From IMG/VR virus record IMGVR_UViG_3300033571_005398, positions 1 to 64,000 of that record: DNA of 64,000 bases, one strand, 5' to 3'. Below the pieces are notes generated by a model. The model did no database searches. It was not told where the DNA came from and saw only the letters and a program-made list of their open reading frames with translations. A program made the translations under genes and the position numbers. This stretch comes from a virus. This document shows positions 1 through 17,337 of the stretch, piece after piece; the first letter of the stretch is position 1; each line of letters starts with the position of its first letter.

Positions 1-6
1 ACGACA

Positions 7-81
7 GCCAGACCAGCAGGCTCCCGGGTGCAAGCCCCGGGCTGGCACGACCGGCCTTGCCGGGAAACGAAAGGAAACAAC
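7..81 (+). promoter_or_regulatory. Structured 5' leader, copy A
   Basis: First of four related leaders. P1 pairs GCCAG (7-11) with CTGGC (42-46). It encloses the conserved ACCAGCAG and hairpin P2, CCCGGG (23-28) with CCCGGG (36-41) around the 7-nt loop TGCAAGC. A third hairpin P3 pairs CCGGC (51-55) with GCCGG (59-63). The ribosome binding site (AAAGGA) and the ATG at 82 follow directly. P1 differs from the other copies by compensating changes on both sides of the stem, which supports pairing. Function unknown; position suggests control of translation or transcript stability. Confidence 0.75.
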
Positions 82-297
82 ATGGCACTCACCTTCACAT
101 ACACCGAAACAAGAACACACCGCATCACCGTAGATAGAGACGTTTACATTCCTGCCGTAGGCGTTGCTGACCGTCTCCTTGACGGAGAATGCGACCTCAA
201 CGACCCCCGGGTAATCTCGTGGGAGAAAGAGGAGTCGACCTTTCAGTTGGAGGGTTGGAAGAAAGCAGAACCTACAAAACCTGCCCAAGAGCAATAG
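82..297 (+). CDS. Hypothetical small early protein (71 aa)
   Basis: Not recognised. The start at 82 is chosen because AAAGGA lies just upstream and because the structured leader ends there; an in-frame ATG at 28 lies inside the leader. The product is acidic and charged, with no membrane segment or Cys motif. It heads the small-gene arm under leader copy A, so it may share regulation with the genes behind copies B, C and D. Confidence 0.6.
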   Translation: MALTFTYTETRTHRITVDRDVYIPAVGVADRLLDGECDLNDPRVISWEKEESTFQLEGWKKAEPTKPAQEQ

Positions 298-313
298 CAC
301 AAGCATTACCAAA

Positions 314-387
314 GCCTGACCAGCAGACACTCCGGTGCAAGTCCGGGGCAGGCACTACGGCCTAGCCGTACAACAGAAAGGTACACA
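314..387 (+). promoter_or_regulatory. Structured 5' leader, copy B
   Basis: P1 pairs GCCTG (314-318) with CAGGC (349-353). P2 pairs CTCCGG (330-335) with CCGGGG (343-348), including one T.G wobble, around loop TGCAAGT. P3 pairs TACGGC (356-361) with GCCGTA (365-370) around a 3-nt loop. GAAAGG and the ATG at 388 follow. The P3 sequence is entirely different from copies A, C and D but the pairing is kept. Confidence 0.75.
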
Positions 388-654
388 ATGAGCATTACAA
401 CAGAGAAAGTAAGCCCCAACATTGCAACCACCCGACGTGACGATGGGCGTGGAGACCCGGTGGTAGTCACGACCACCTTGACCCTGAGCGACATGACCCT
501 CATCGAGATTCGCTTGAGTAATGGAACCAACAGAATCAAGAAACTCTCGTGCTACATTTCGAACGAACACGCTCGATTGTTCGCCGAGGCCATCCTGACC
601 AACGTAAGCAACTTTGAGCAGGGCGTAAAAATCTTTGAGGAGGCAGGCAAATGA
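388..654 (+). CDS. Hypothetical small early protein (88 aa)
   Basis: Not recognised. It starts right after leader copy B with GAAAGG upstream of ATG. The sequence suggests a small alpha/beta domain with a Thr/Val-rich beta stretch in the middle and a C-terminal helix; no catalytic motif is visible. Its stop overlaps the next start by 4 bases (ATGA), so the two genes are probably translated together. Confidence 0.6.
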   Translation: MSITTEKVSPNIATTRRDDGRGDPVVVTTTLTLSDMTLIEIRLSNGTNRIKKLSCYISNEHARLFAEAILTNVSNFEQGVKIFEEAGK

Positions 655-944
655 GCCCCAAGTACCGAGTGTGGTTCAAGGACTACGAAAACCGTTGTTG
701 GATGCCCCTGAGTTGGTCGCCCATCTTTACCTCGTGGGACGAGGGGAAGGCGTGGATGGCCAGCGACGAGCGTGACTGGGAGTTCCCGGTCAGCCTTGAA
801 GCCATCGCTTCCTGTGAAGAGTGCGATGGCCTCATTGGCAATTCGGTCTTCGAGCAGACCCACGGCTACACGCTGTGCCACAACTGCATTACCAACAAGA
901 CAGCAAAACCTGTATCCATGCACGCCCCCGGATACGGTGACTAG
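651..944 (+). CDS. Small putative zinc-binding protein (97 aa)
   Basis: Two CxxC pairs (CEEC and CHNC) about 20 residues apart look like a zinc ribbon or treble-clef knuckle in the second half. The N-terminal half is rich in Trp and acidic residues. Family not recognised; the zinc site is inferred from Cys spacing only. It is translationally coupled to the preceding gene through an ATGA overlap and is followed by leader copy C. Confidence 0.6.
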   Translation: MSPKYRVWFKDYENRCWMPLSWSPIFTSWDEGKAWMASDERDWEFPVSLEAIASCEECDGLIGNSVFEQTHGYTLCHNCITNKTAKPVSMHAPGYGD

Positions 945-951
945 CACCAAA

Positions 952-1025
952 GCCTGACTAGCAGAGACCCGGGTGCGACTCCCGGGCAGGCACTGCGACT
1001 CCGGTCGCCTAACGAAAGGAATACC
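952..1025 (+). promoter_or_regulatory. Structured 5' leader, copy C
   Basis: P1 pairs GCCTG (952-956) with CAGGC (987-991). P2 pairs CCCGGG (968-973) with CCCGGG (981-986) around TGCGACT, the most divergent of the four loops. P3 pairs GCGAC (995-999) with GTCGC (1004-1008) around TCCG. AACGAAAGGA and the ATG at 1026 follow. Confidence 0.75.
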
Positions 1026-1310
1026 ATGAGTACAAAATACATACGCTTCGCGTACAACAAGTCGCTCGACCGACTGAGCGCCGAGTTCCTCGTTGTTGAG
1101 CCTCTCGACATCGTGACCGAACACGAGACCAACCTGTCCAACACTGAGATTGAGTTTCTCGAAGAGTACCTCGACTTCACGCGCCTGTACAACGGCGATG
1201 CGATGTTCGTGACCGTCAAGCCTGAAGACATCGAGCGCGTGTTCGAGACCAGCGAGATGGACGACACCAACTTCCGAGACATGTACGACCGATTCGTGGA
1301 GGCAAAATAA
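1026..1310 (+). CDS. Hypothetical acidic early protein (94 aa)
   Basis: Not recognised. Start at 1026 with AAAGGA at the usual distance, directly after leader copy C. The protein is strongly acidic (many Glu and Asp), which is common among small phage proteins that bind host factors or mimic DNA, but no such role can be claimed. Its stop overlaps the next ATG by one base. Confidence 0.6.
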   Translation: MSTKYIRFAYNKSLDRLSAEFLVVEPLDIVTEHETNLSNTEIEFLEEYLDFTRLYNGDAMFVTVKPEDIERVFETSEMDDTNFRDMYDRFVEAK

Positions 1311-1816
1311 TGGGAAAAATCACACTGGATATTGCTGGTAGTGGCTCGTTTATCAACGCTGAGGGCGACCTCGTTCGTGGCAAGCGCTCGGTGACCGTTG
1401 CCGAGGGCGACCTCAAGAGCGCGTCATACGCGCTGACCAACGGTAACTGCCACAGTCTTGCTGTGGCGCTCCACCTCGAAACTGGATTCCCCATCGTGGC
1501 GTTCTTTCCCAACGAGGCCGATGTCGACGATGTCGACGACGAGTGGTACGACGAGGGTTACTCGGAACGCGTACAGCACTTTGCGGTGCTGTCGCCCGAG
1601 GGCTTCGTCCTCGACGGCGATGGCGCTCAGCCACTAGACGAGGTGCTTGACCGCACATTGTGGGAAGAGTCTGAAGGCTGGACGATTGACCAACTGATTG
1701 CTCAGATTGACGAAGAGAACCAGCAAGAAGACGTGTCTTGGAACCCCTTGTGCCCTCCTCTTGTACAGTCATTCGTACAGCCAATACTGGATGTGTACAA
1801 AAGCCTCGCCAAATAG
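1310..1816 (+). CDS. Predicted papain-like cysteine protein (168 aa)
   Basis: The segment GNCHSLAVALHLETG (Cys47), followed by HFAVLSPEG (His90) and then LDGDGA (Asp102/104), has the Cys...His...Asp order and spacing of compact papain-like or transglutaminase-like folds. A hydrophobic helix follows the Cys, as expected in such folds. The family is not named with certainty and catalysis is inferred. It is coupled to the preceding gene (TAATG overlap). Possible roles are a protease or amidase acting on host proteins, or an inactive domain of that fold. Confidence 0.55.
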   Translation: MGKITLDIAGSGSFINAEGDLVRGKRSVTVAEGDLKSASYALTNGNCHSLAVALHLETGFPIVAFFPNEADVDDVDDEWYDEGYSERVQHFAVLSPEGFVLDGDGAQPLDEVLDRTLWEESEGWTIDQLIAQIDEENQQEDVSWNPLCPPLVQSFVQPILDVYKSLAK

Positions 1817-1869
1817 AGTTCCGTGCGAACGGCCGCGGGAGTTCCAGCAACACCTCAGCAATACATGTT

Positions 1870-1887
1870 TTGTACAAGCCTGTACAG
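1870..1887. promoter_or_regulatory. Two 8-bp palindromes one helical turn apart
   Basis: TTGTACAA (1870-1877) and CTGTACAG (1880-1887) are perfect palindromes sharing the core TGTACA, with centres 10 bp apart. They lie just upstream of the ribosome binding site of the gene at 1916, in the 99-bp gap after the gene ending at 1816. Further TGTAC elements occur in the preceding 120 bp. The spacing would suit a dimeric regulator; this is an inference. Confidence 0.35.
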
Positions 1888-1915
1888 AGCCCATACAAAA
1901 AGGAGAACCAAGCAG

Positions 1916-2083
1916 ATGGATGAAAACACTCGGCGCATCAACGAAACCGTACGAATCATCAAAACGTACACAGAAGTGATGAAGGTGGCCATTTCGTACA
2001 CAGAAGGGATGATTACTCCGCAAGTAGCGATGGAGCAAATCGTTTACCTGTGCATGGATAGCAACCCCGAAGATGCCAAGTGA
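1916..2083 (+). CDS. Hypothetical small protein (55 aa)
   Basis: Not recognised. ATG at 1916 follows AAGGAG by about 10 bases; an earlier in-frame ATG at 1823 would start inside the palindrome-containing gap and lacks such a site. The product looks largely helical with no Cys or membrane segment. Its TGA overlaps the next GTG (GTGA), indicating coupling. Confidence 0.55.
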   Translation: MDENTRRINETVRIIKTYTEVMKVAISYTEGMITPQVAMEQIVYLCMDSNPEDAK

Positions 2084-2313
2084 AGAGCGTCACGGACAAG
2101 CAAGCCGTGGCAGAAGCAATCCACGAACTGTGGAAGTGTTACGTCGACCACGGTCGGCCAATGACAGAGGACACGCTGGAATGTTTGCGCGTACTCAACA
2201 ACGCTAAGGAGGAGGCCGAGTGGCTCGACGACGAGGCCTTCTCTCAGCAATACCAAAACGCTATTCAGATGGCACGAACAATAAAAGGAGAACACACATG
2301 CAAGACGAAGTAA
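2080..2313 (+). CDS. Hypothetical small helical protein (77 aa)
   Basis: Not recognised. It starts with GTG in a GTGA overlap with the previous gene and has only a weak ribosome binding site, so it probably relies on coupling. The product is acidic and predicted helical. Its 3' end carries AAAAGGAG, the ribosome binding site of the next gene, within the coding region. Confidence 0.5.
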   Translation: MKSVTDKQAVAEAIHELWKCYVDHGRPMTEDTLECLRVLNNAKEEAEWLDDEAFSQQYQNAIQMARTIKGEHTCKTK

Positions 2314-2477
2314 CTCTCAGCCTTGAACAGGTGCGCCGGATGTCGGCAGAAGCCTTTCAAGCAGGCGTACAGAGCGAGCGTGAGCGCTTGCTGGAAGTTG
2401 TAAAGGACGACACGCACCCCATCTGGTTTGGGGCGCGTCAGTCCGCTTTCATCGACCTAGTGGAGGGGAAGGTATGA
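2298..2477 (+). CDS. Small protein with GxxxERER motif (59 aa)
   Basis: The start at 2298 is fixed by AAAAGGAG eight bases upstream. The product contains GVQSERERLLEVV, matching the G-x3-ERER-hydrophobic pattern also seen in the products at 2474, 17534 and 17833. The family is common in actinobacteriophages but has no function that I know. The gene overlaps its neighbours on both sides. Confidence 0.6.
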   Translation: MQDEVTLSLEQVRRMSAEAFQAGVQSERERLLEVVKDDTHPIWFGARQSAFIDLVEGKV

Positions 2478-2632
2478 CTTCACCCACCTCAGCACAACGC
2501 AATTTCGTGCGTGGTCAGGAGGCTGAGCGCGAGCGCATCATCGCGCTTCTCGAAACCGAATGTGAGTGTGACCCTGACCACCGGTGCACTTATCACCGCA
2601 TGATTACGATTATCAAGGAAGGAAACAAATGA
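2474..2632 (+). CDS. Small protein with GxxxERER motif (52 aa)
   Basis: ATGA overlap with the preceding stop sets the start. The product carries GQEAERERIIALLE, then a Cys/His stretch (ECECDPDHRCTYH) that could hold a metal ion, then a helix with MITIIKEG. Architecture matches the products at 17534 and 17833: ERER helix, variable middle, second amphipathic helix. Function unknown. Confidence 0.55.
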   Translation: MTSPTSAQRNFVRGQEAERERIIALLETECECDPDHRCTYHRMITIIKEGNK

Positions 2633-2805
2633 ACACCTACGAAATAACTTGGCAAGAAACAACGCTAAGACGCGTTATCGTCGAAGGCGCTTCCCGACAA
2701 GAAGCGTGGGAGTTGTTTGGGGAGAGCAAGGGGAAGGTGGTTCGGAGCAAAAAGATTATGGTAGGTGTTCCGGCGATTCAACTCATAAACCCCGAGAGCA
2801 AGTAG
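2629..2805 (+). CDS. Hypothetical small protein (58 aa)
   Basis: Not recognised. ATGA overlap with the previous gene, and AAGGAA upstream of the start. The sequence suggests a beta-alpha-beta fold (a VIVEG strand, an Ala/Glu helix, then a final hydrophobic strand). Leader copy D begins eight bases after its stop. Confidence 0.5.
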   Translation: MNTYEITWQETTLRRVIVEGASRQEAWELFGESKGKVVRSKKIMVGVPAIQLINPESK

Positions 2806-2812
2806 CAACAAA

Positions 2813-2885
2813 GCCTGACCAGCAGACCCCCCGGTGCAAGTCCGGGGCAGGCACAGCGACTAGGTCGCGTAACGAAAGGAGCAAC
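2813..2885 (+). promoter_or_regulatory. Structured 5' leader, copy D
   Basis: P1 pairs GCCTG (2813-2817) with CAGGC (2848-2852). P2 pairs CCCCGG (2829-2834) with CCGGGG (2842-2847) around TGCAAGT. P3 pairs GCGAC (2856-2860) with GTCGC (2864-2868) around TAG. AACGAAAGGA and ATG 2886 follow. Compared with copy B, the T.G pair of P2 has become C-G, another change that preserves the stem. Confidence 0.75.
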
Positions 2886-3215
2886 ATGGGTACGATACAA
2901 AACATATTCAAAGATGCTGTAGTGGCCGTACAGGCCATACAGGAAGCACGACACCATCGAAAGAGGTACCTCTGGGTAGCCTTCTGGTCTACCGGACGTG
3001 AGCAGAACGTAGAGTTCACGGCCAAGTCCTCACGTCTTTTGAAGCGTGAGGTGGGTGACCTGCTCAAGGGCATGGTGATTGCCAACGCAATAAAAGAGTC
3101 GACTGGAAATACCGACATACTTCTGTCGGCACACCTCATCAGCGCAACACAGGGGTTGCTCTCCGAGTACCTTGTGGAGAAAGACCAAGTCGTCGAGTTG
3201 GATGTAAGGAAATAG
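2886..3215 (+). CDS. Hypothetical protein (109 aa)
   Basis: Not recognised. The start at 2886 directly follows leader D and AAAGGA; the reading frame is open further upstream, through the leader, but that part is not expected to be translated. The product is basic at the N terminus and mostly helical. It is the last gene before a strong terminator, so it closes this small-gene transcript. Confidence 0.6.
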   Translation: MGTIQNIFKDAVVAVQAIQEARHHRKRYLWVAFWSTGREQNVEFTAKSSRLLKREVGDLLKGMVIANAIKESTGNTDILLSAHLISATQGLLSEYLVEKDQVVELDVRK

Positions 3216-3249
3216 TTGTAAAGCCGCTGCACCCCGTGGCGGTACCCAT

Positions 3250-3300
3250 GATGGACGGCTGTTGTACATACGCGTACAGCAGTCGTCCATCTTTATTTTT
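3250..3300 (+). terminator. Rho-independent terminator
   Basis: An 18-position stem (GATGGACG-G-CTGTTGTAC with GTACAGCAG-T-CGTCCATC; one mismatch and one wobble) is closed by a 6-nt loop and followed by TTTATTTTT on the + strand. It ends the small-gene operon. The next gene starts 13 bases after the T-run, so it needs read-through or its own promoter. Confidence 0.85.
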
Positions 3301-3312
3301 ATTGGAGGTCTC

Positions 3313-3477
3313 GTGCCAAAAGAATCCCTTGGTACTTCGTTGTTTGGTTGGTGTCTACCGGATGATAACAACCACAAAAACTGCATCGTAGCGTTTGAAT
3401 CGTACAATGCGACCGTCACTTGTGGGTGCGATTGCCACCCTAAAGACGCAAAAGATGTACCAGAAGAAACCGACTAA
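3313..3477 (+). CDS. Small Cys-containing protein (54 aa)
   Basis: GTG start at 3313 preceded by TTGGAGG. An in-frame ATG at 3262 falls inside the terminator hairpin and is rejected. The C-terminal half holds a CGCDCH cluster plus another Cys, possibly a metal-binding site. Not recognised. Confidence 0.5.
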   Translation: MPKESLGTSLFGWCLPDDNNHKNCIVAFESYNATVTCGCDCHPKDAKDVPEETD

Positions 3478-3499
3478 ACTAATCACAGGAGGGTTAGAA

Positions 3500-4000
3500 A
3501 TGCAGACATTTATTACATCGACCAATGGGCGTTATGCGTTTGAAATGACCGCACAGCAGTTGGACAACAAGCGCCTCAACAAGCAGGCGCTTGAGGCTTG
3601 GCAGATTATGCTGACCAACCTCAAACTCGACCCAGAGGGCAACCACCGGGAGCCCAAGGGCTGGTACAACCACCCGGCCACCAAGATGTGGCGAGGCTAC
3701 GAAGTTGCTTTGGGGCACTACATAGATTGGATGTGCGAAGAGTGGCGCGAGCGTGGTTACAAGACCACCATCGACACCAAAGCACACGCCACACTGGAGC
3801 GTGCCCGAGCACTGGGCATCCTTGACGAGGCCGGAACATTACCGCCATGGGCCGAAGACGGCCCTCGGATGGATGCTATTGCTTCAAGCCACCGCACGGC
3901 CCTGCTGTGCAAGAACTACGCGTGGTACAGCCAGTTTGGCTGGGCTGAGGATACTGGAGTCGCCCCAGAAGCCTATGAGTACGTCTGGGGAGCCCGATGA
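3500..4000 (+). CDS. DenV-like pyrimidine dimer glycosylase family protein
   Basis: It matches the actinobacterial MSMEG_6728-type proteins related to T4 endonuclease V (Pyr_excise) as I recall them: an N-terminal MQTF, then LDNKRLNKQALEAWQI, GWYNHPATKMWRGYE and a C-terminal SSHRTALLCKNYAWYSQFGW. T4 DenV removes UV-induced pyrimidine dimers by glycosylase and lyase action; the activity of this branch is inferred. The start at 3500 follows AGGAGGG. The stop overlaps the HicA-like start (ATGA). Confidence 0.7.
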   Translation: MQTFITSTNGRYAFEMTAQQLDNKRLNKQALEAWQIMLTNLKLDPEGNHREPKGWYNHPATKMWRGYEVALGHYIDWMCEEWRERGYKTTIDTKAHATLERARALGILDEAGTLPPWAEDGPRMDAIASSHRTALLCKNYAWYSQFGWAEDTGVAPEAYEYVWGAR

Positions 4001-4209
4001 GGGGAACCCCTAAAGAACTGACTATCCTCATTCGCAAGGCCGAGAGGCAGGGATGGATAGTCACTCGAAGAACCAACAATCACCTGAAGTGGAGGTCTCC
4101 CGATGGGACTTCTGTATGGTCGTCCGGCACACCGTCCGACATCAACGCCGTGTTTCAAATACAGCGGAACCTCAAACAGCACGGCTATCAAGAGCAGGAA
4201 GCACAATGA
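3997..4209 (+). CDS. HicA-like dsRBD-fold protein (70 aa)
   Basis: The whole length fits the HicA/YcfA family: GWIVTRRTNNHLKWRSPDG with the conserved His (His29), then SGTPSDINAV and a C-terminal helix ending in G. HicA toxins are small mRNA interferases normally paired with a HicB antitoxin. No HicB-like gene adjoins it; the neighbours are a glycosylase and WhiB, joined by 4-base overlaps. It could be a solitary RNA-binding protein rather than a toxin. Confidence 0.75.
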   Translation: MRGTPKELTILIRKAERQGWIVTRRTNNHLKWRSPDGTSVWSSGTPSDINAVFQIQRNLKQHGYQEQEAQ

Positions 4210-4511
4210 ACACCCCCCAAGTTGACCCCGACAATGCGCTCTGCGCTCAAACAGCACCAGACGTATTCTTTCCACCCCCGGGCGACAGTGGCATGTCTAA
4301 CTCGGCCAAGCGTATTTGCTCAATGTGCCCCGAGGTAGAAGTCTGCCTAACTGTTGCCATAGCAAACAATGAAACACATGGTATCTGGGGAGGCGCGTCA
4401 GAGTGGGAGCGTGCTCGCATCCGTCGTGGTCACCGTACAAAAGAAGTACACATCAAAGAACTGAAGGAGCGATTCAATGAAAACAACACCTCGAAAGGTA
4501 AAAAGAAATGA
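4206..4511 (+). CDS. WhiB-family transcription regulator (first copy)
   Basis: 101 aa with the four Cys of a [4Fe-4S] WhiB domain (Cys13, Cys38, Cys41, Cys47; CxxCx5C) followed by the GIWGG turn and a basic tail. WhiB proteins bind the primary sigma factor region 4 in Actinobacteria and redirect transcription. The start at 4206 sits in an ATGA overlap; the frame is open further upstream but lacks a site. Lying next to the xis and int genes, it may control the lysogeny decision or superinfection, as reported for mycobacteriophage WhiB proteins. Confidence 0.9.
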   Translation: MNTPQVDPDNALCAQTAPDVFFPPPGDSGMSNSAKRICSMCPEVEVCLTVAIANNETHGIWGGASEWERARIRRGHRTKEVHIKELKERFNENNTSKGKKK

Positions 4512-4711
4512 ACAACCTGAGCAACAACTGGATGACCGCAAGGGAGTTGGCCGAGCACGCTGGCATAAACTACCCAAATCTCTGGACGTATCGAAAGCGA
4601 GGCATCCTTCCAATGCCGGATATGTACGTCGGGAACAAGCCCCTGTGGAGCAAGGCGCTAGTCGACTCGTGGGACTTCCAAAACCAAAAGATTGAATTAG
4701 TGGAGGAGTAA
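4508..4711 (+). CDS. xis: Excisionase-like HTH protein (67 aa)
   Basis: A short winged-helix protein of the MerR/excisionase type: MTARELAEHAGINYPNLW is the helix-turn-helix, followed by a wing and KRGILPMPDMY, then the W-S-K-x-L-V-D-S-W signature typical of phage Xis-like proteins. It lies directly upstream of the integrase (1-base overlap), as excisionases often do. The name rests on context and fold; it could also be a repressor of the operon. Confidence 0.65.
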   Translation: MNNLSNNWMTARELAEHAGINYPNLWTYRKRGILPMPDMYVGNKPLWSKALVDSWDFQNQKIELVEE

Positions 4712-5964
4712 TGGTCTACGCCATAGCGCGTGGCAGTCGATTCACCGGGTACTACCGAGACAAAGGTGGTACCCGGAAATCGGCCGGTACGTTTGATACA
4801 GAAGCAGAAGCCTTAGCAAGAGCAGAGGTTGCCCAAGAGCAGGGCGAACTTGGAGAGTACCGCCTGAGCATGACTTTGGCCGAGTACGTCCGAGCATGGC
4901 TGGCGAACGCCGACCTGATGCCCATCACCAAAAAAAATTACCAGTCTGTGTTGTCTACACATGTATTGCCAGTGCTGGGCACAAAGAAGATTGGCGAGAT
5001 TACTCGTGTGCAGGTTCGGATGCTGCTTCAACGGCTTTCTACGGCTGGATTGAGCGGTGCTGTACGCACGCATGTGAAGTCTGCTTTGGGCTCTGCCTTC
5101 AAGGAGTTGCTGGAGTATGACCTAATCGAGGTGAACCCTACCCACAAGGTTACGGTGAAGACCGTACGAAAGACCGTGGGAATCAACGTGATGAGTCCAG
5201 AGGAGTTTCACGGAGTATTGCCGTACTTGCCAAACGACAGCGCGAGGTTGCTGGCCAAGATGCTTGTGGTTTCTGGGTGTCGATTTGGTGAGGCAACAGA
5301 ACTCCGACTGTCAGACTTGGATGCGACTACGAATGAAGTCCATGTTCGCCGTCGCGTAAGTGACCTCGGTGCGCAGGTAAACGAAGGCAAGCGCTTTCGA
5401 GTAATCGAAGGAACAAAGAGCGGCCGAACAAGAGTAATTACTCTAGGAAAGCCTCTAATGGATGAGTTGATGTCTTACGCTGTACAGCACCATGTACAGC
5501 AAGAGGAGTTACTGTTTCCCCGCCGCCGGGTTGCCAAAAAGATTGTGGACATCTCGTCGCCGAAGAAAGAGATGGAGCATGAGCATGGAACTCGAACCGG
5601 GTACACCAAGGGCGGTTGTCGATGTGTCGAATGTCGAACAGCCAACATGCTGTACCAGCAGAACTGGAGAATGCTAAAAGGTCAGTTGACTGGTGCGTCC
5701 AGCACCAATAGCGAAGACCATCTCTCTCGAGATGTATGGCGTACGATATGGCGTACAGCAGTTCGCCTGTCCGGCATGACATGGATGCCTCGAACGCATG
5801 ACCTGCGCCACACAAACGCAACTCAGTTACTCAAGAATGGAGTTGACTTGCACGAAGTCAAGGAGCGTCTTGGCCACCAGTCAATTTCTACAACAGAAGG
5901 GTACTTGCACCGAGTCCGTCAGCAAGTATCGAAAGCACATGAAGCAGTAGCAGACTTCATGTAG
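4711..5964 (+). CDS. int: Tyrosine integrase with inserted zinc-knuckle-like segment
   Basis: 417 aa. N-terminal arm-binding and SAM-like core-binding domains (to about residue 155), then the catalytic domain: Arg near 191 (GCRFGEATELRL), HDLRH near 362, LGHQS near 388 and the nucleophile Tyr near 398 (EGYLHR). Residues 288-318 carry an extra segment, HGTRTGYTKGGCRCVECR, inserted between the Arg I box and the HxxR box. Similar GCRCxxC segments occur in other actinobacteriophage proteins. Integrates phage DNA at a host att site. No att core could be identified. Confidence 0.93.
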   Translation: MVYAIARGSRFTGYYRDKGGTRKSAGTFDTEAEALARAEVAQEQGELGEYRLSMTLAEYVRAWLANADLMPITKKNYQSVLSTHVLPVLGTKKIGEITRVQVRMLLQRLSTAGLSGAVRTHVKSALGSAFKELLEYDLIEVNPTHKVTVKTVRKTVGINVMSPEEFHGVLPYLPNDSARLLAKMLVVSGCRFGEATELRLSDLDATTNEVHVRRRVSDLGAQVNEGKRFRVIEGTKSGRTRVITLGKPLMDELMSYAVQHHVQQEELLFPRRRVAKKIVDISSPKKEMEHEHGTRTGYTKGGCRCVECRTANMLYQQNWRMLKGQLTGASSTNSEDHLSRDVWRTIWRTAVRLSGMTWMPRTHDLRHTNATQLLKNGVDLHEVKERLGHQSISTTEGYLHRVRQQVSKAHEAVADFM

Positions 5965-5978
5965 AGAAGCCGTACCAG

Positions 5979-6017
5979 AAGAGGAAGCCTTACCAGAAGG
6001 GTGGGGCTTCCTCTTTT
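5979..6017 (+). terminator. Hairpin between convergent operons
   Basis: An 11-bp stem AAGAGGAAGCC / GGCTTCCTCTT with a 15-nt loop, followed by a short T-run on the + strand. It lies just after the integrase stop and touches the stop codon of the leftward endonuclease gene, so it probably ends the rightward transcript and may also act on the leftward one. Confidence 0.7.
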
Positions 6018-6387
6018 ACATGCGCTCAGCGTGCTTGTCGGTTACAAAAACCCCAAGGCCACCTTTGCGAATATAGCGTGCAAGTTTGGTGATTCGTTCC
6101 GGGCTATCTTCAAGCCACCCCAAAGCTGTATTGCAGCCCGAACACAAGAGCCCCCTAACTTCATTAGTAACATGGTCATGGTCAAGGCAAAGCGTATGCT
6201 CGTATCCTCGCGCGTCGTCTCCGCAGGAAGCACACTTATAGTTTTGAGCCTTGGCGATAGCCATGTACTGGTCTTCGTCAATTCCGTACAGATAACGTTT
6301 TTGGCTAAAAGCCTTTCGCCTAACACGGGTAGTGACAGGTTCGTCAATGATAATTACTTCGCTGTTTTCGAGAGTCCGTTGTTTCAT
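6016..6387 (-). CDS. Recombination endonuclease VII-like HNH nuclease
   Basis: 123 aa. KCASCG (Cys52, Cys55), LDHDH (69-72), VRGLLCSGCNTALG (Cys82, Cys85) give the treble-clef HNH fold with the zinc Cys pairs of the T4 gp49 / endonuclease VII family. Such enzymes cut branched DNA, including Holliday junctions, before packaging. It is the last gene of the leftward set, separated by 26 bp from the preceding one. A homing-type HNH is less likely because of the specific DHDH...RGLLCxxCN pattern. Confidence 0.85.
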   Translation of the reverse strand: MKQRTLENSEVIIIDEPVTTRVRRKAFSQKRYLYGIDEDQYMAIAKAQNYKCASCGDDARGYEHTLCLDHDHVTNEVRGLLCSGCNTALGWLEDSPERITKLARYIRKGGLGVFVTDKHAERM

Positions 6388-6413
6388 AGCCTATGTAGTC
6401 CTATTGTCTACTA

Positions 6414-7910
6414 TCAGTCTTCGATTGACTGGCGGATAATTGTCGTCGTCTGCTCTTCGTTGAGCGGTTGTTCCATTTCTCTAAGTGCCTGTGCTCTGTC
6501 GCCAAATATAGCCGAGAGCACACCTCCAGCAGACTGTCGTTCTGCGGTGATTCGTACAAACTCCCGGTTCTCTTCCAACTCCTTTACAGACTGGACAAGT
6601 TTGAACAACCGGTCGATTTCTTGCGAGGTGTTTGGGTCGGCGTAACCGCCATTCATTTCTTCAGAGAAACGCATAAAAGCCACTCTTTGCCCTTGCATTT
6701 CAATTATTGCAGTGAGCAGAGACTTGAGTTGTTCTTTGGTTTTTACCTCTACTGGAAGATTGAAAGCACAGGTGTTATTCTCTTTGAAAGCAGGGCATGT
6801 AGAGGCCACAAAGCAAGTGTCGCACTGGCGGATAGATGTTGCATTTGTGTGTACAACAGGAACCTGTTTGAGGATGTCGTTGCCCGCATCGTCGGTGTCC
6901 ACAATAGTCTTCATTTGGTAGCCAAAGACAGGCATGGAAGTGACTTCTTGTGGGTCTCGCTGAATTACCTCTGCCCGTTCGGGTTTCCGCATCTCAACAC
7001 CGCTGTTAGTAGAAGTACCCCCTATCAAATCCATCAAACCGGTGTATAGGGTGTCGTCACTGTTGTCTACTATCTTGCCACCTTTGATGGCTTTCAAGTC
7101 TGGTTTGTCTTTATCCATGGTCTTCTCCAACTGTAAATATGACCAGATTGCTAAGCGGGTGGCCTCAAGAGTGTCGTCTGAAATGAACTTATCGAAGTCT
7201 AGTCCGGCGTTTGTCACTACCGCTCGGTAACGAGGACGAGCTTGAGCCTTCATCTTCTTGGGGTAACGTACGAGTTTTGTACCATCCCATACGATGGTTT
7301 CTCCGCGTCGCATAGGCGACAAGTAAGACAGAGTAGAAGCAGAAGCAAAAGGAATCTGACGAAGGTTGTCTGGCTTGGCCGTAGCCAGTGCATGGAACGT
7401 GACGGGGTGCTTGCTCAACAAGCCTCGAGTCAGGCCAGCCAAAGAAGTCACCGACTCGATGGTAGAAGATGGAATAGCAATGTTGGAGTACTCCGCTGCC
7501 CATCGCTGGAGCACCATTGTGCCGTACGCCTCATGCCAGACCACCCACATCTTGGGGTCATGTTCAAAGGCTGCACGGTTCTGCTGAATCTTGGGCAACC
7601 CAAATTTCTGGCTGTCAAACTCAACCCAGCCCTCAATGCGGTCATGGTTTACAGCAATAAAATCTTCGTAATCTGCAGCGTACTCTTCAAGTTCACGTTC
7701 AGACAAGTTAGATTTGTCGGCCTGTACAGCACCAGAGTCAACCCAGACTTTCATGCCGGGAAAGAAGTGCTCGTCAATGAGGTACAACTTGGTTTTAGGA
7801 AGCCCGCGTTTGCGCAAGCCCCAGTAAGAAAGCATGACTTGCTCAACGCCGTTGCGCTCAAGAAGAGTCCTGTTACTGGGAATCTCTACTCCGCCAAAAA
7901 TCAACTTCAT
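6414..7910 (-). CDS. Predicted TIM-barrel protein, TGT/DpdA-like (498 aa)
   Basis: I see the order of elements of tRNA-guanine transglycosylase paralogues such as DpdA: WVDSGA (residues 56-61), a helix with a Tyr/Phe-rich EEYAADYEDF, WVEFD (95-99), an N-x-N-type helix, WHEAYGT, an Ala/Ile-Pro strand, then HALATAKPDNLRQIPF and SASTLSYLSP where DpdA has a SVDST motif. The C-terminal third adds a four-Cys cluster (about 359-380). DpdA inserts 7-deazaguanine bases in DNA; here the key SVDST is altered, so activity is uncertain. The fold call is from memory of motifs only. Confidence 0.5.
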   Translation of the reverse strand: MKLIFGGVEIPSNRTLLERNGVEQVMLSYWGLRKRGLPKTKLYLIDEHFFPGMKVWVDSGAVQADKSNLSERELEEYAADYEDFIAVNHDRIEGWVEFDSQKFGLPKIQQNRAAFEHDPKMWVVWHEAYGTMVLQRWAAEYSNIAIPSSTIESVTSLAGLTRGLLSKHPVTFHALATAKPDNLRQIPFASASTLSYLSPMRRGETIVWDGTKLVRYPKKMKAQARPRYRAVVTNAGLDFDKFISDDTLEATRLAIWSYLQLEKTMDKDKPDLKAIKGGKIVDNSDDTLYTGLMDLIGGTSTNSGVEMRKPERAEVIQRDPQEVTSMPVFGYQMKTIVDTDDAGNDILKQVPVVHTNATSIRQCDTCFVASTCPAFKENNTCAFNLPVEVKTKEQLKSLLTAIIEMQGQRVAFMRFSEEMNGGYADPNTSQEIDRLFKLVQSVKELEENREFVRITAERQSAGGVLSAIFGDRAQALREMEQPLNEEQTTTIIRQSIED

Positions 7911-16749: not shown

Positions 16750-17337
16750 CTACTGTATTTGGTCCCTATACTTTGGGTCAGAAACTTGTTCGACAATCGC
16801 CTTTTCTATGGCGTCAATGTGCACGCTTCCAGCCAATCTGGCGAGGGCGTACGCATCGGCCGCGTTGTCGTCGTTAAACTCGATGCCCCACCGCTTGTAA
16901 ATCTGAAGTAGCATCTCTTGCTTCTTGGAGGTGCCCTTACCTGACGCGTACTTCTTTAGTGTCATGGGCGGAATCTGCAATGGTGTACGTAGTTCTGGCT
17001 GATTTCCGTGCATTACCCACAGTGTCAGTTTGACAACAGCAGACAGCTCACCAAGCACCAACGCGGACTGAGACGCCAGAACCGTACCCTCCATGGCAAC
17101 GTCTACAATCTTGTGGCCAGACATCAGCATGAACTTTCCACGCATCCACTGGGATATGTCGTACAGCCTCTGTACGCCGTTGTACGGGGACTTGTACACC
17201 CATGTGTCGTGATGGCTAGGGTCGTCTAAACTGACCGCTGACAGGGCAAATCCGGTAAGTGACTGGTCAATGCCGATGGCAATGAACTTGGTCTTGGATA
17301 CTCCGGGACCAAAGTGCTTTTCTCTACCGGCAGTCAT
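16750..17337 (-). CDS. ruvC: RuvC-like Holliday junction resolvase
   Basis: 195 aa, RNase H fold: GIDQSLTGFAL (Asp24), VAMEG (Glu83), PMTLKKYASGKGTSKKQEM (the loop typical of RuvC and its phage relatives) and DDNAADAYALA (Asp156, Asp157, Asp161). It cuts four-way junctions arising in replication. It overlaps the next small gene by 4 bases. No RuvA or RuvB gene is seen, as usual in phages. Confidence 0.88.
   Translation of the reverse strand: MTAGREKHFGPGVSKTKFIAIGIDQSLTGFALSAVSLDDPSHHDTWVYKSPYNGVQRLYDISQWMRGKFMLMSGHKIVDVAMEGTVLASQSALVLGELSAVVKLTLWVMHGNQPELRTPLQIPPMTLKKYASGKGTSKKQEMLLQIYKRWGIEFNDDNAADAYALARLAGSVHIDAIEKAIVEQVSDPKYRDQIQ

Follow-up and report, generated by a model that had tools for sequence, protein, structure and literature searches.

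The element and its four copies

In this study, we analyzed a stretch of 64,000 nucleotides of viral DNA (positions 1 to 64,000 of the IMG/VR record IMGVR_UViG_3300033571_005398; hereafter called the window) for a structured element that is present in four copies, A to D, and that looks like an undescribed RNA family of actinophages. A first-pass annotation made from the sequence alone had described these copies, within positions 7 to 2,885, as structured leaders before small genes, and all four lie on the plus strand where it had put them, with a stem P1, a joining strand, a stem P2 with the loop TGCRANY, and a variable stem P3. The core of the element comprises 42 nt, namely P1 (core positions 1-5/36-40), the joining strand (6-16), P2 (17-22/30-35) with its loop (23-29), and the tail A41-C42, and P2 adjoins P1 directly on the 3′ side.

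Copy A has its core at 7-48 (P1 7-11/42-46, D-loop-like joining strand 12-22, P2 23-28/36-41, putative T-loop 29-35, tail AC 47-48), followed by the P3 hairpin at 51-63 and a gene at 82-297 (71 aa). For copy B, the core was located at 314-355 (P1 314-318/349-353, P2 330-335/343-348, loop 336-342, tail AC 354-355), the P3 hairpin at 356-370 and the gene at 388-654 (88 aa). The cores of copies C and D span 952-993 and 2813-2854, their P3 hairpins 995-1008 and 2856-2868, and the respective genes 1026-1310 (94 aa) and 2886-3215 (109 aa). All these features are on the plus strand, and none of the four proteins has a PHROG or Pfam match. With R1, a covariance model described below, the cores scored 64.7, 63.8, 59.5, and 64.9 bits (A to D); copy A belongs to the training set of R1, so its score is not independent.

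Each copy has small genes on either side, and in 3′ direction the order is P3 hairpin, purine-rich Shine-Dalgarno (SD) sequence, and ATG. Upstream, TAG stop codons are found at 942-944 and 2803-2805, 7 nt before copies C and D, respectively, and a stop codon lies 16 nt before copy B. For copy A, a stop codon ending 7 nt upstream was read in a longer record, G005 (94,541 bases), which is identical across window positions 1-3909. The term leader is right in that each copy precedes the ribosome binding site of a different small gene; it is partly misleading, because stop codons end 7-16 nt upstream of the copies, which are intercistronic. G005 holds two extra copies upstream, and three of its cores are identical, i.e., the copies duplicate. 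No significant fifth copy was found in the window with R1 (one match of 11.9 bits at 17028, E 1.2), and the record of 74,760 bases has no further copy at E up to 0.001.

P1 is GCCTG/CAGGC in copies B, C, and D and GCCAG/CTGGC in copy A, P2 consists of 6 bp, and the joining strand reads ACCAGCAG in A, B, and D and ACTAGCAG in C, where a 2-bp pseudoknot considered below is AG/CT. In the alignment of the four copies, columns 8:41 are U-A or A-U and columns 24:36 are G-C or C-G, and RNAalifold gave two-sided changes in 4 of 16 pairs. The folding energies of copies A to D are ordinary (z −0.12, −1.13, −1.51, and −1.11), so that the case for structure rests on covariation. That the stems are kept while their sequences change, as had been claimed, is borne out by these compensatory columns and by covariation in other phages.

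Relatives, covariation, and placement

A first search of viral contigs used a pattern of fixed spacing that was blind to the stems and returned 93 stretches. Among their 67 distinct 42-mers, 59 pair in 5/5 positions of P1 and in at least 3/4 of the free P2 pairs, and when the 3′ halves were dealt anew the same pairing was reached in 1333 of 13,400 cases (10%); the pairing in these matches is not due to chance. For the alignment A2, only cores with at least 9/11 stem pairs were kept, thereby dropping 11 rows, of which L012 and L049 may be true copies. R1 was built from 70 cores and applied to 50 records that had been chosen because they already contained a pattern or BLAST match. It detected between 1 and 6 copies in 49 of them; the sole miss was phage Byblos. 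Divergent copies with new variation led to further scans and to a second model, R2, with its alignment A4 of 76 cores; these were chosen by hand among 160 non-redundant cores, of which the first 150 were considered. The total collection comprises 374 distinct cores, for which entry required P1 5/5, P2 at least 5/6, A6, A12, U23, A27, and C42. Stem covariation in the filtered sets is thus partly imposed by the entry rules, and the stem-blind count is the free measure; all counts ignore kinship, and loci of one record can overlap.

Of the 1064 cells in the R2 alignment, 99.7% are paired, and two-sided changes were seen in all but one of its 14 pairs (13/14). None of 500 shuffles matched the paired percentage or the covariation score, and 9 of 500 matched the number of changed pairs. 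Since stem pairing was an entry condition of this alignment, contacts that had not been imposed weigh more. Core positions 9 and 24 change together: G·U was found in 274, A·G in 97, and other combinations in 3 of the 374 cores (371/374 fit). A scan permitting G or U at 24 after G9 gave at least 120 stretches, and the 191 matches listed from them (110 distinct) all have U and none G; a scan for the mismatch A9..U24 gave 1 stretch. Both types are present in 44 of 338 loci, which suggests repeated switching.

For contacts free of the descriptor, we used the 130 distinct cores that match none of the six search patterns. There, 9-24 is G·U in 109 and A·G in 19 (128/130), 10-25 is G-C in 129, 7-13 is paired in 124, and 14-29 and 15-28 are paired in 129 each; the top 14 covarying column pairs are all proposed contacts. 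The pair G22-C30 closing the loop is present in 115 of 115 distinct cores; since U23 and A27 were requirements of the descriptor and the scan patterns contained GG..CC, the T-loop count is to be taken as consistency, not as proof. Taken from sequence, the covariation supports P1 (5 bp), P2 (6 bp), the 2-bp pseudoknot, a one-pair D-arm, and a contact between a D-loop-like and a T-loop-like segment.

Placement was evaluated in 495 distinct contexts, leaving out instances near locus ends. In 350 of these, the stop codon of an open reading frame (ORF) open for at least 30 codons precedes P1 at a distance of 5-15 nt, vs. 145 of 1485 random points, and a distance of 7 or 8 nt is the commonest register (190/495). 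Stop codons at a distance of 5-15 nt were TGA in 174, TAG in 92, and TAA in 90 cases. An SD with an open start codon within 110 nt downstream follows in 433 of 495 contexts vs. 80 of 490 in the antisense control, at a median distance of 41 nt (5th-95th percentile 25-77 nt). The covariance search which the first-pass annotation had proposed yielded many further copies with added covariation, mostly before SD and start. Position 41 is A or G in 480 of 495 (A in 424) and position 42 is C in 482. P3 begins pairing at nt 43-46 in 329 of the 374 distinct cores; in 60%, its fold is more stable than that of shuffled sequences (z below −1.5). These sequence contexts support well that the copies sit between cistrons. 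The gaps between many small genes of these phages measure about 90 nt. At seven loci (L045, L061, L043, L028, L047, L314, L350), a downstream AGATCTnYCGGCCC stretch stands in place of a nearby SD and start, in some of them followed by a promoter-like TTGACA; promoter-like sequences also follow copies in L113 and L042.

Copies detected with R2 number 10 in Send513, 8 in Joe, 7 in Lika, 5 in Predator, 4 each in Konstantine and the record of the window, 3 in ObLaDi, 2 in MrMiyagi, 1 each in xhp1, BP677P1, Rabbitrun, and LittleE, and 0 in Byblos; hence 11 of 12 named phages, of Streptomyces, Mycobacterium, Gordonia, Actinomyces, and Bifidobacterium, have 1-10 copies. A GG/UUC query against 50,697 phage records matched 155 at E up to 0.5, and in 139 of them the match covers at least 80% of the query. 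The 155 comprise 113 Streptomyces, 29 Mycobacterium, 6 Gordonia, 4 Microbacterium, and 1 each Arthrobacter, Actinomyces, and Stenotrophomonas. Among the matches listed, the records mostly have no annotated feature in these gaps; at a laxer limit, many added matches were annotated tRNA genes. The same query gave none in 72,556 plasmids, a stricter A9/G24 pattern gave 4 stretches in 84,980 prokaryote species genomes, and R2 matched 6 of 394 genomes of the class Actinomycetes, one copy each and the centre genome included. The family thus looks mainly viral and actinobacterial. Two AT-rich, non-actinobacterial-looking loci, L218 (minus strand, 9900-9400) and L313 (5430-5490), also match the descriptor.

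In the window, a strong terminator-like hairpin of 18 pairs with a T-rich tail lies at 3250-3300 on the plus strand, after the gene following copy D. It is likely the end of the transcription unit holding the four copies, which therefore probably belong to one unit. A scan for promoter-like sites, uninformative for actinobacterial promoters, gave 0 in window positions 1-6000 vs. 3.2 in shuffled sequences. Further downstream, genes for a pyrimidine dimer glycosylase (3500-3997), a WhiB-like regulator (4206-4508), and an integrase (4711-5961) fit a temperate actinobacterial phage.

Resemblance to the tRNA elbow

Based on its sequence features, the 42-nt element is predicted to form a tRNA elbow on an 11-bp stack (5+6) resembling acceptor and T-arm, with a one-pair D-arm, and this prediction is well supported. 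The P2 loop probably is a T-loop, in which core positions 23-29 equal tRNA positions 54-60 with U54..A58, closed by G-C. Equally well supported is the reading of the joining strand as a D-loop, where 9-10 would contact 24-25 as tRNA positions 18-19 contact 55-56. The 2-bp pseudoknot (14-15 with 28-29) and the pair 7-13 would lock the elbow, and the unpaired A-C tail resembles N73-C74, both again well supported. In tRNA, positions 59-60 normally bulge out, and it is these that the predicted pseudoknot uses here. An A18-G55 combination is able to replace G18-U55 in tRNA, for which our literature search gave no confirmation. According to the structural literature, 19-56 of the tRNA elbow is a Watson-Crick pair, and residue 18 is intercalated and bonded to 55 (PMC4810234). 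The likeness to a T-loop noted in the first-pass annotation was borne out.

With a tRNA minihelix or elbow, the element shares the U54..A58 T-loop, C56 paired to the equivalent of G19, the 18·55 contact, abutting stems, and the N73-C74-like tail. It differs from tRNA in having 5+6 instead of 7+5 bp, no anticodon arm, a D-arm of one pair, the additional 2-bp pseudoknot at loop positions 59-60, a common A·G form of the 18·55 contact, and a position that is not at a 3′ end. An ordinary tRNA gene, i.e., a cloverleaf with anticodon arm, was rejected as a candidate, as ARAGORN detected none in the window. ARAGORN also found no tRNA gene in the stretches of Predator, Joe, and Konstantine, and of 14 loci analyzed 12 were without tRNA and L277 and L206 had one each.

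No named family was known to the first-pass annotation for this layout, in line with Rfam 15, for which neither the window nor L148, L318, and L206 showed a match at gathering score; on five further loci, only a tmRNA-type domain exceeded the gathering score. At E up to 10, window positions 1-3000 matched mir-254 and sul1 alone, both below gathering (sul1 RNA, RF03058: copy A only, 18.8 bits, E 2.6, gathering 36.2). The hairpin L5 of cobalamin riboswitches, GGTGNAANTCC, resembles a T-loop. The link to this riboswitch drawn in the first-pass annotation was not sustained, as no cobalamin riboswitch is among the Rfam matches in window positions 1-3000 at E up to 10. A riboswitch was not kept as the lead reading, because nothing in Rfam reached gathering score, the matches listed at E up to 10 all being below threshold, and because the residues that vary least agree with a tRNA elbow.

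tmRNA (RF00023) is matched in that one phage slot holds a 77-nt tmRNA-type form above gathering, which differs from tmRNA by lacking a tag reading frame; the family has 0 matches in the window and none at threshold among the scanned 42-nt copies, with one 21-bit match in Predator below gathering. tRNA-like structures within longer RNAs are known from mascRNA (MALAT1/MEN-beta), the 3′ ends of plant viral RNAs, and mitochondrial t-elements, several of them processed by RNase P or RNase Z (PMC4919922). These are eukaryotic or RNA-virus elements at 3′ ends or end-processing sites, whereas the phage element is repeated between cistrons of DNA phages; one copy of Joe scored 26.2 with the mascRNA model (gathering 42.5). 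The SAS/ESAS repeats of cluster K mycobacteriophages and similar repeats of Microbacterium phages likewise lie just 5′ of gene starts, mostly of non-structural genes, with a function described as unknown (PMC3203893, PMC7302621). They share with our element the repeated occurrence just upstream of actinophage start codons and differ by consisting of a 13-bp SAS and 17-bp inverted repeats, for which the available parts of these papers describe no tRNA-like fold. The SAS consensus GGGATAGGAGCCC with up to 2 mismatches has 1 match in the window vs. 0.91 expected, i.e., chance level. As far as their available parts go, papers on repeats in actinophage gaps report other motifs and no tRNA-like fold (PMC3203893, PMC12699233, PMC7302621, PMC9302106), and we found no description of the element in the open literature searched.

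The same slot between cistrons also holds other tRNA-like forms. In G005, a form with the D-loop-like strand GTTGGTAC and an extra arm is present, and annotated gaps of Konstantine, Send513, and Predator have the joining strands GATGGTCGNA, AACGGTTTTCG, and GTAAGGCGTA. One gap of Predator contains a perfect 12-bp hairpin with the loop TTCGACT and the tail GCGA, i.e., a T-loop minihelix. The 77-nt tmRNA-type domain without message lies in record G024 (locus L155, 5873-5949) and scores 58.2 bits, above the gathering score of 47. The stop codon of a frame open for 85 codons is found 6 nt upstream of this domain, which ends with ACTA and is followed by an SD-like AGGAGGA; another 75 nt downstream comes the nearest ATG that opens a long frame. 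Class I and the armed form of G005 have stacks of 11 bp; those of class II, of one 6+6 form, of the minihelix, and of the tmRNA-type form comprise 12 bp. From these sequences, forms that share little else appear to replace one another in the same slot.

Such forms were counted with a broad descriptor (T-loop, two abutting stems totalling 10-13 bp, R-C tail) in gaps of 60-330 nt. It detected a form in 7 of 13 gaps of Konstantine, 10 of 14 of Send513, 7 of 10 each of Joe and Lika, and 5 of 6 of Predator (36/53); except for phiC31, the stretches had been taken around matches, and this share of gaps is not a whole-genome share. The controls gave 0 of 2650 shuffled carrier gaps, 0 of 750 shuffled phiC31 gaps, and 0 of 68 reverse strands (0 of 53 in carriers). 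phiC31 as a candidate carrier has no R2 match above 17 bits (E 0.52). In phiC31 (L348, 40702-41015), a single base separates the end of a real tRNA-Thr gene from the annotated start of gene 29, a further case of a tRNA beside the start of a phage gene.

Several elements can also share one gap. On the minus strand of L318 (~6200-7000), a tandem array has 6 detected units in 787 nt with two classes mixed, and on the minus strand of L206 (~2460-3000) an array has 5 units in 523 nt; shorter arrays are present in L196, L277, L190, and L319. The units are set apart by GC-rich spacers of the type GGCAAGGC and lie inside intergenic gaps. A search for near relatives of L318 against phages gave no match. 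The first-pass annotation had missed the elbow contacts, the position between cistrons, the alternative tRNA-like forms in this slot, and the arrays.

Possible roles in phage mRNA

As the function of these elements we tentatively favor, at a probability somewhat below even, a punctuation of polycistronic phage mRNA by tRNA mimics of the RNase P type. Each copy would be a minimal tRNA mimic between two cistrons, recognized by host tRNA machinery, most likely RNase P, which would cut at the 5′ edge of P1 or close to it. The cut would part the upstream cistron from the downstream one, whose new 5′ end would be structured (P1, followed by P3) and would slow 5′-dependent decay. A long early transcript could thereby be converted into units with separate stability and translation. 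A cut by RNase Z on the 3′ side is possible and less likely, because C74 is kept. The conserved features are the ones that tRNA machinery relies on to recognize a substrate, and RNase P would fit best. It stacks on the elbow, measures the length of acceptor plus T-stem, and pairs with the RCC tail, and its substrates include acceptor/T-arm hairpins as well as some mRNAs and phage RNAs (PMC11143913, PMC4919922, PMC4810234). In BLASTP comparisons of ORFs of at least 70 codons, an insensitive test, none of the protein families was found in more than 3 of 8 carriers, which is what one would expect if the reader were a host factor; this argues only weakly against a common phage-encoded partner.

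Several points weigh against the proposed punctuation by RNase P. Binding alone, with no cut, would produce an identical pattern in the sequences. The class I stacks have 11 bp and not 12, save for copies with one extra P1 pair. C follows at position 43 in only 37 of 495 contexts, so that the tail is A-C-N and rarely A-C-C. U at −1, which is preferred by RNase P of Escherichia coli and Bacillus subtilis (PMC4919922), is present in only 16 of 495. With the broad descriptor, 17 of the 53 carrier gaps and all 15 of the phiC31 gaps are without a form, and on the minus strand of L148 in G005 (~5830-5770) a form with P1, P2, and AC tail has the loop CTCACGA, thus no T-loop, and a hairpin within the joining strand.

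A markedly less probable explanation is the capture of ribosomes, in which the elbow mimic would contact the ribosome, e.g., at the L1 stalk, so that a terminating ribosome stays and re-initiates at the next start codon. Given the size of the ribosome footprint, the stop codon 7-8 nt upstream (190/495) means that the structure would abut a ribosome standing on it, and a start codon with SD follows ~40 nt downstream. Ribosomes are known to contact the tRNA elbow in each of their three sites, and their L1 stalk shares the T-loop device of RNase P (PMC4810234). Several elements per gap make little sense for one initiation event, and the distance to the start codon varies from 25 to 77 nt (5th-95th percentile). 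The arrays in L318 and L206 and the several copies per genome in many records would better suit a reading that we hold to be unlikely, namely that the elements are processed out as trans-acting mini-tRNAs, e.g., decoys for host factors that bind or cut tRNA, their position being merely convenient. It has against it the signs of a role in cis, i.e., SD and start (433/495), the upstream stop codon (350/495), and P3 at 43-46 (329/374).

Quite improbable, in our estimate, is an exonuclease roadblock, where the compact pseudoknotted fold 5′ of the downstream cistron would halt 5′-to-3′ decay by RNase J after upstream cuts and thereby shield downstream cistrons. RNase J occurs in actinobacteria, which would suit this explanation; the plain 12-bp minihelix of Predator in the same slot is unknotted. 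We rate about as low a regulatory leader in the sense of the first-pass annotation, which had suggested one signal or protein controlling a set of genes: a single protein of phage or host origin, or a small ligand as in a riboswitch, would bind the element and switch a set of early genes. The least variable residues do cluster in the joining strand and the loop, and the element precedes the ribosome binding site with P3 as a conceivable expression platform; yet they are the residues that make up a tRNA elbow, the same slot is taken by forms with other joining strands, no protein family occurs in more than 3 of 8 carriers, and a genome can have up to 10 copies. Finally, a DNA-level repeat (operator, cruciform, or mobile repeat) without RNA function is disfavored as very improbable: the identical cores of G005 indicate duplication and actinophages carry DNA stoperators as a precedent (PMC3029335), but the A·G to G·U switching at 9-24, the G·U stem pairs, the gene-wise orientation (0/53 reverse-strand matches), and the stop-codon register have no obvious reason at the DNA level.

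The element represents an apparently undescribed RNA family in the heavily sequenced actinophages. An elbow mimic of 42 nt would be a handy test substrate for recognition by RNase P, the ribosome, and T-boxes, and the natural A·G replacement of the 18·55 contact is nature's experiment on tRNA tertiary structure. On a broader scale it is possible, with slightly less confidence than for the punctuation itself, that actinophages have a layer of gene expression by tRNA mimicry, in which look-alikes of different structure, ranging from the 12-bp minihelix to the tmRNA-type domain, would be interchangeable in a near-fixed register between stop codon and ribosome binding site. Host tRNA machinery would cut or retain the mRNA at each of them, and some phages would expand them into arrays that release swarms of mini-tRNAs. 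If true, this would account for the splitting of long phage transcripts and for the filling of the ~90-nt gaps between their genes.

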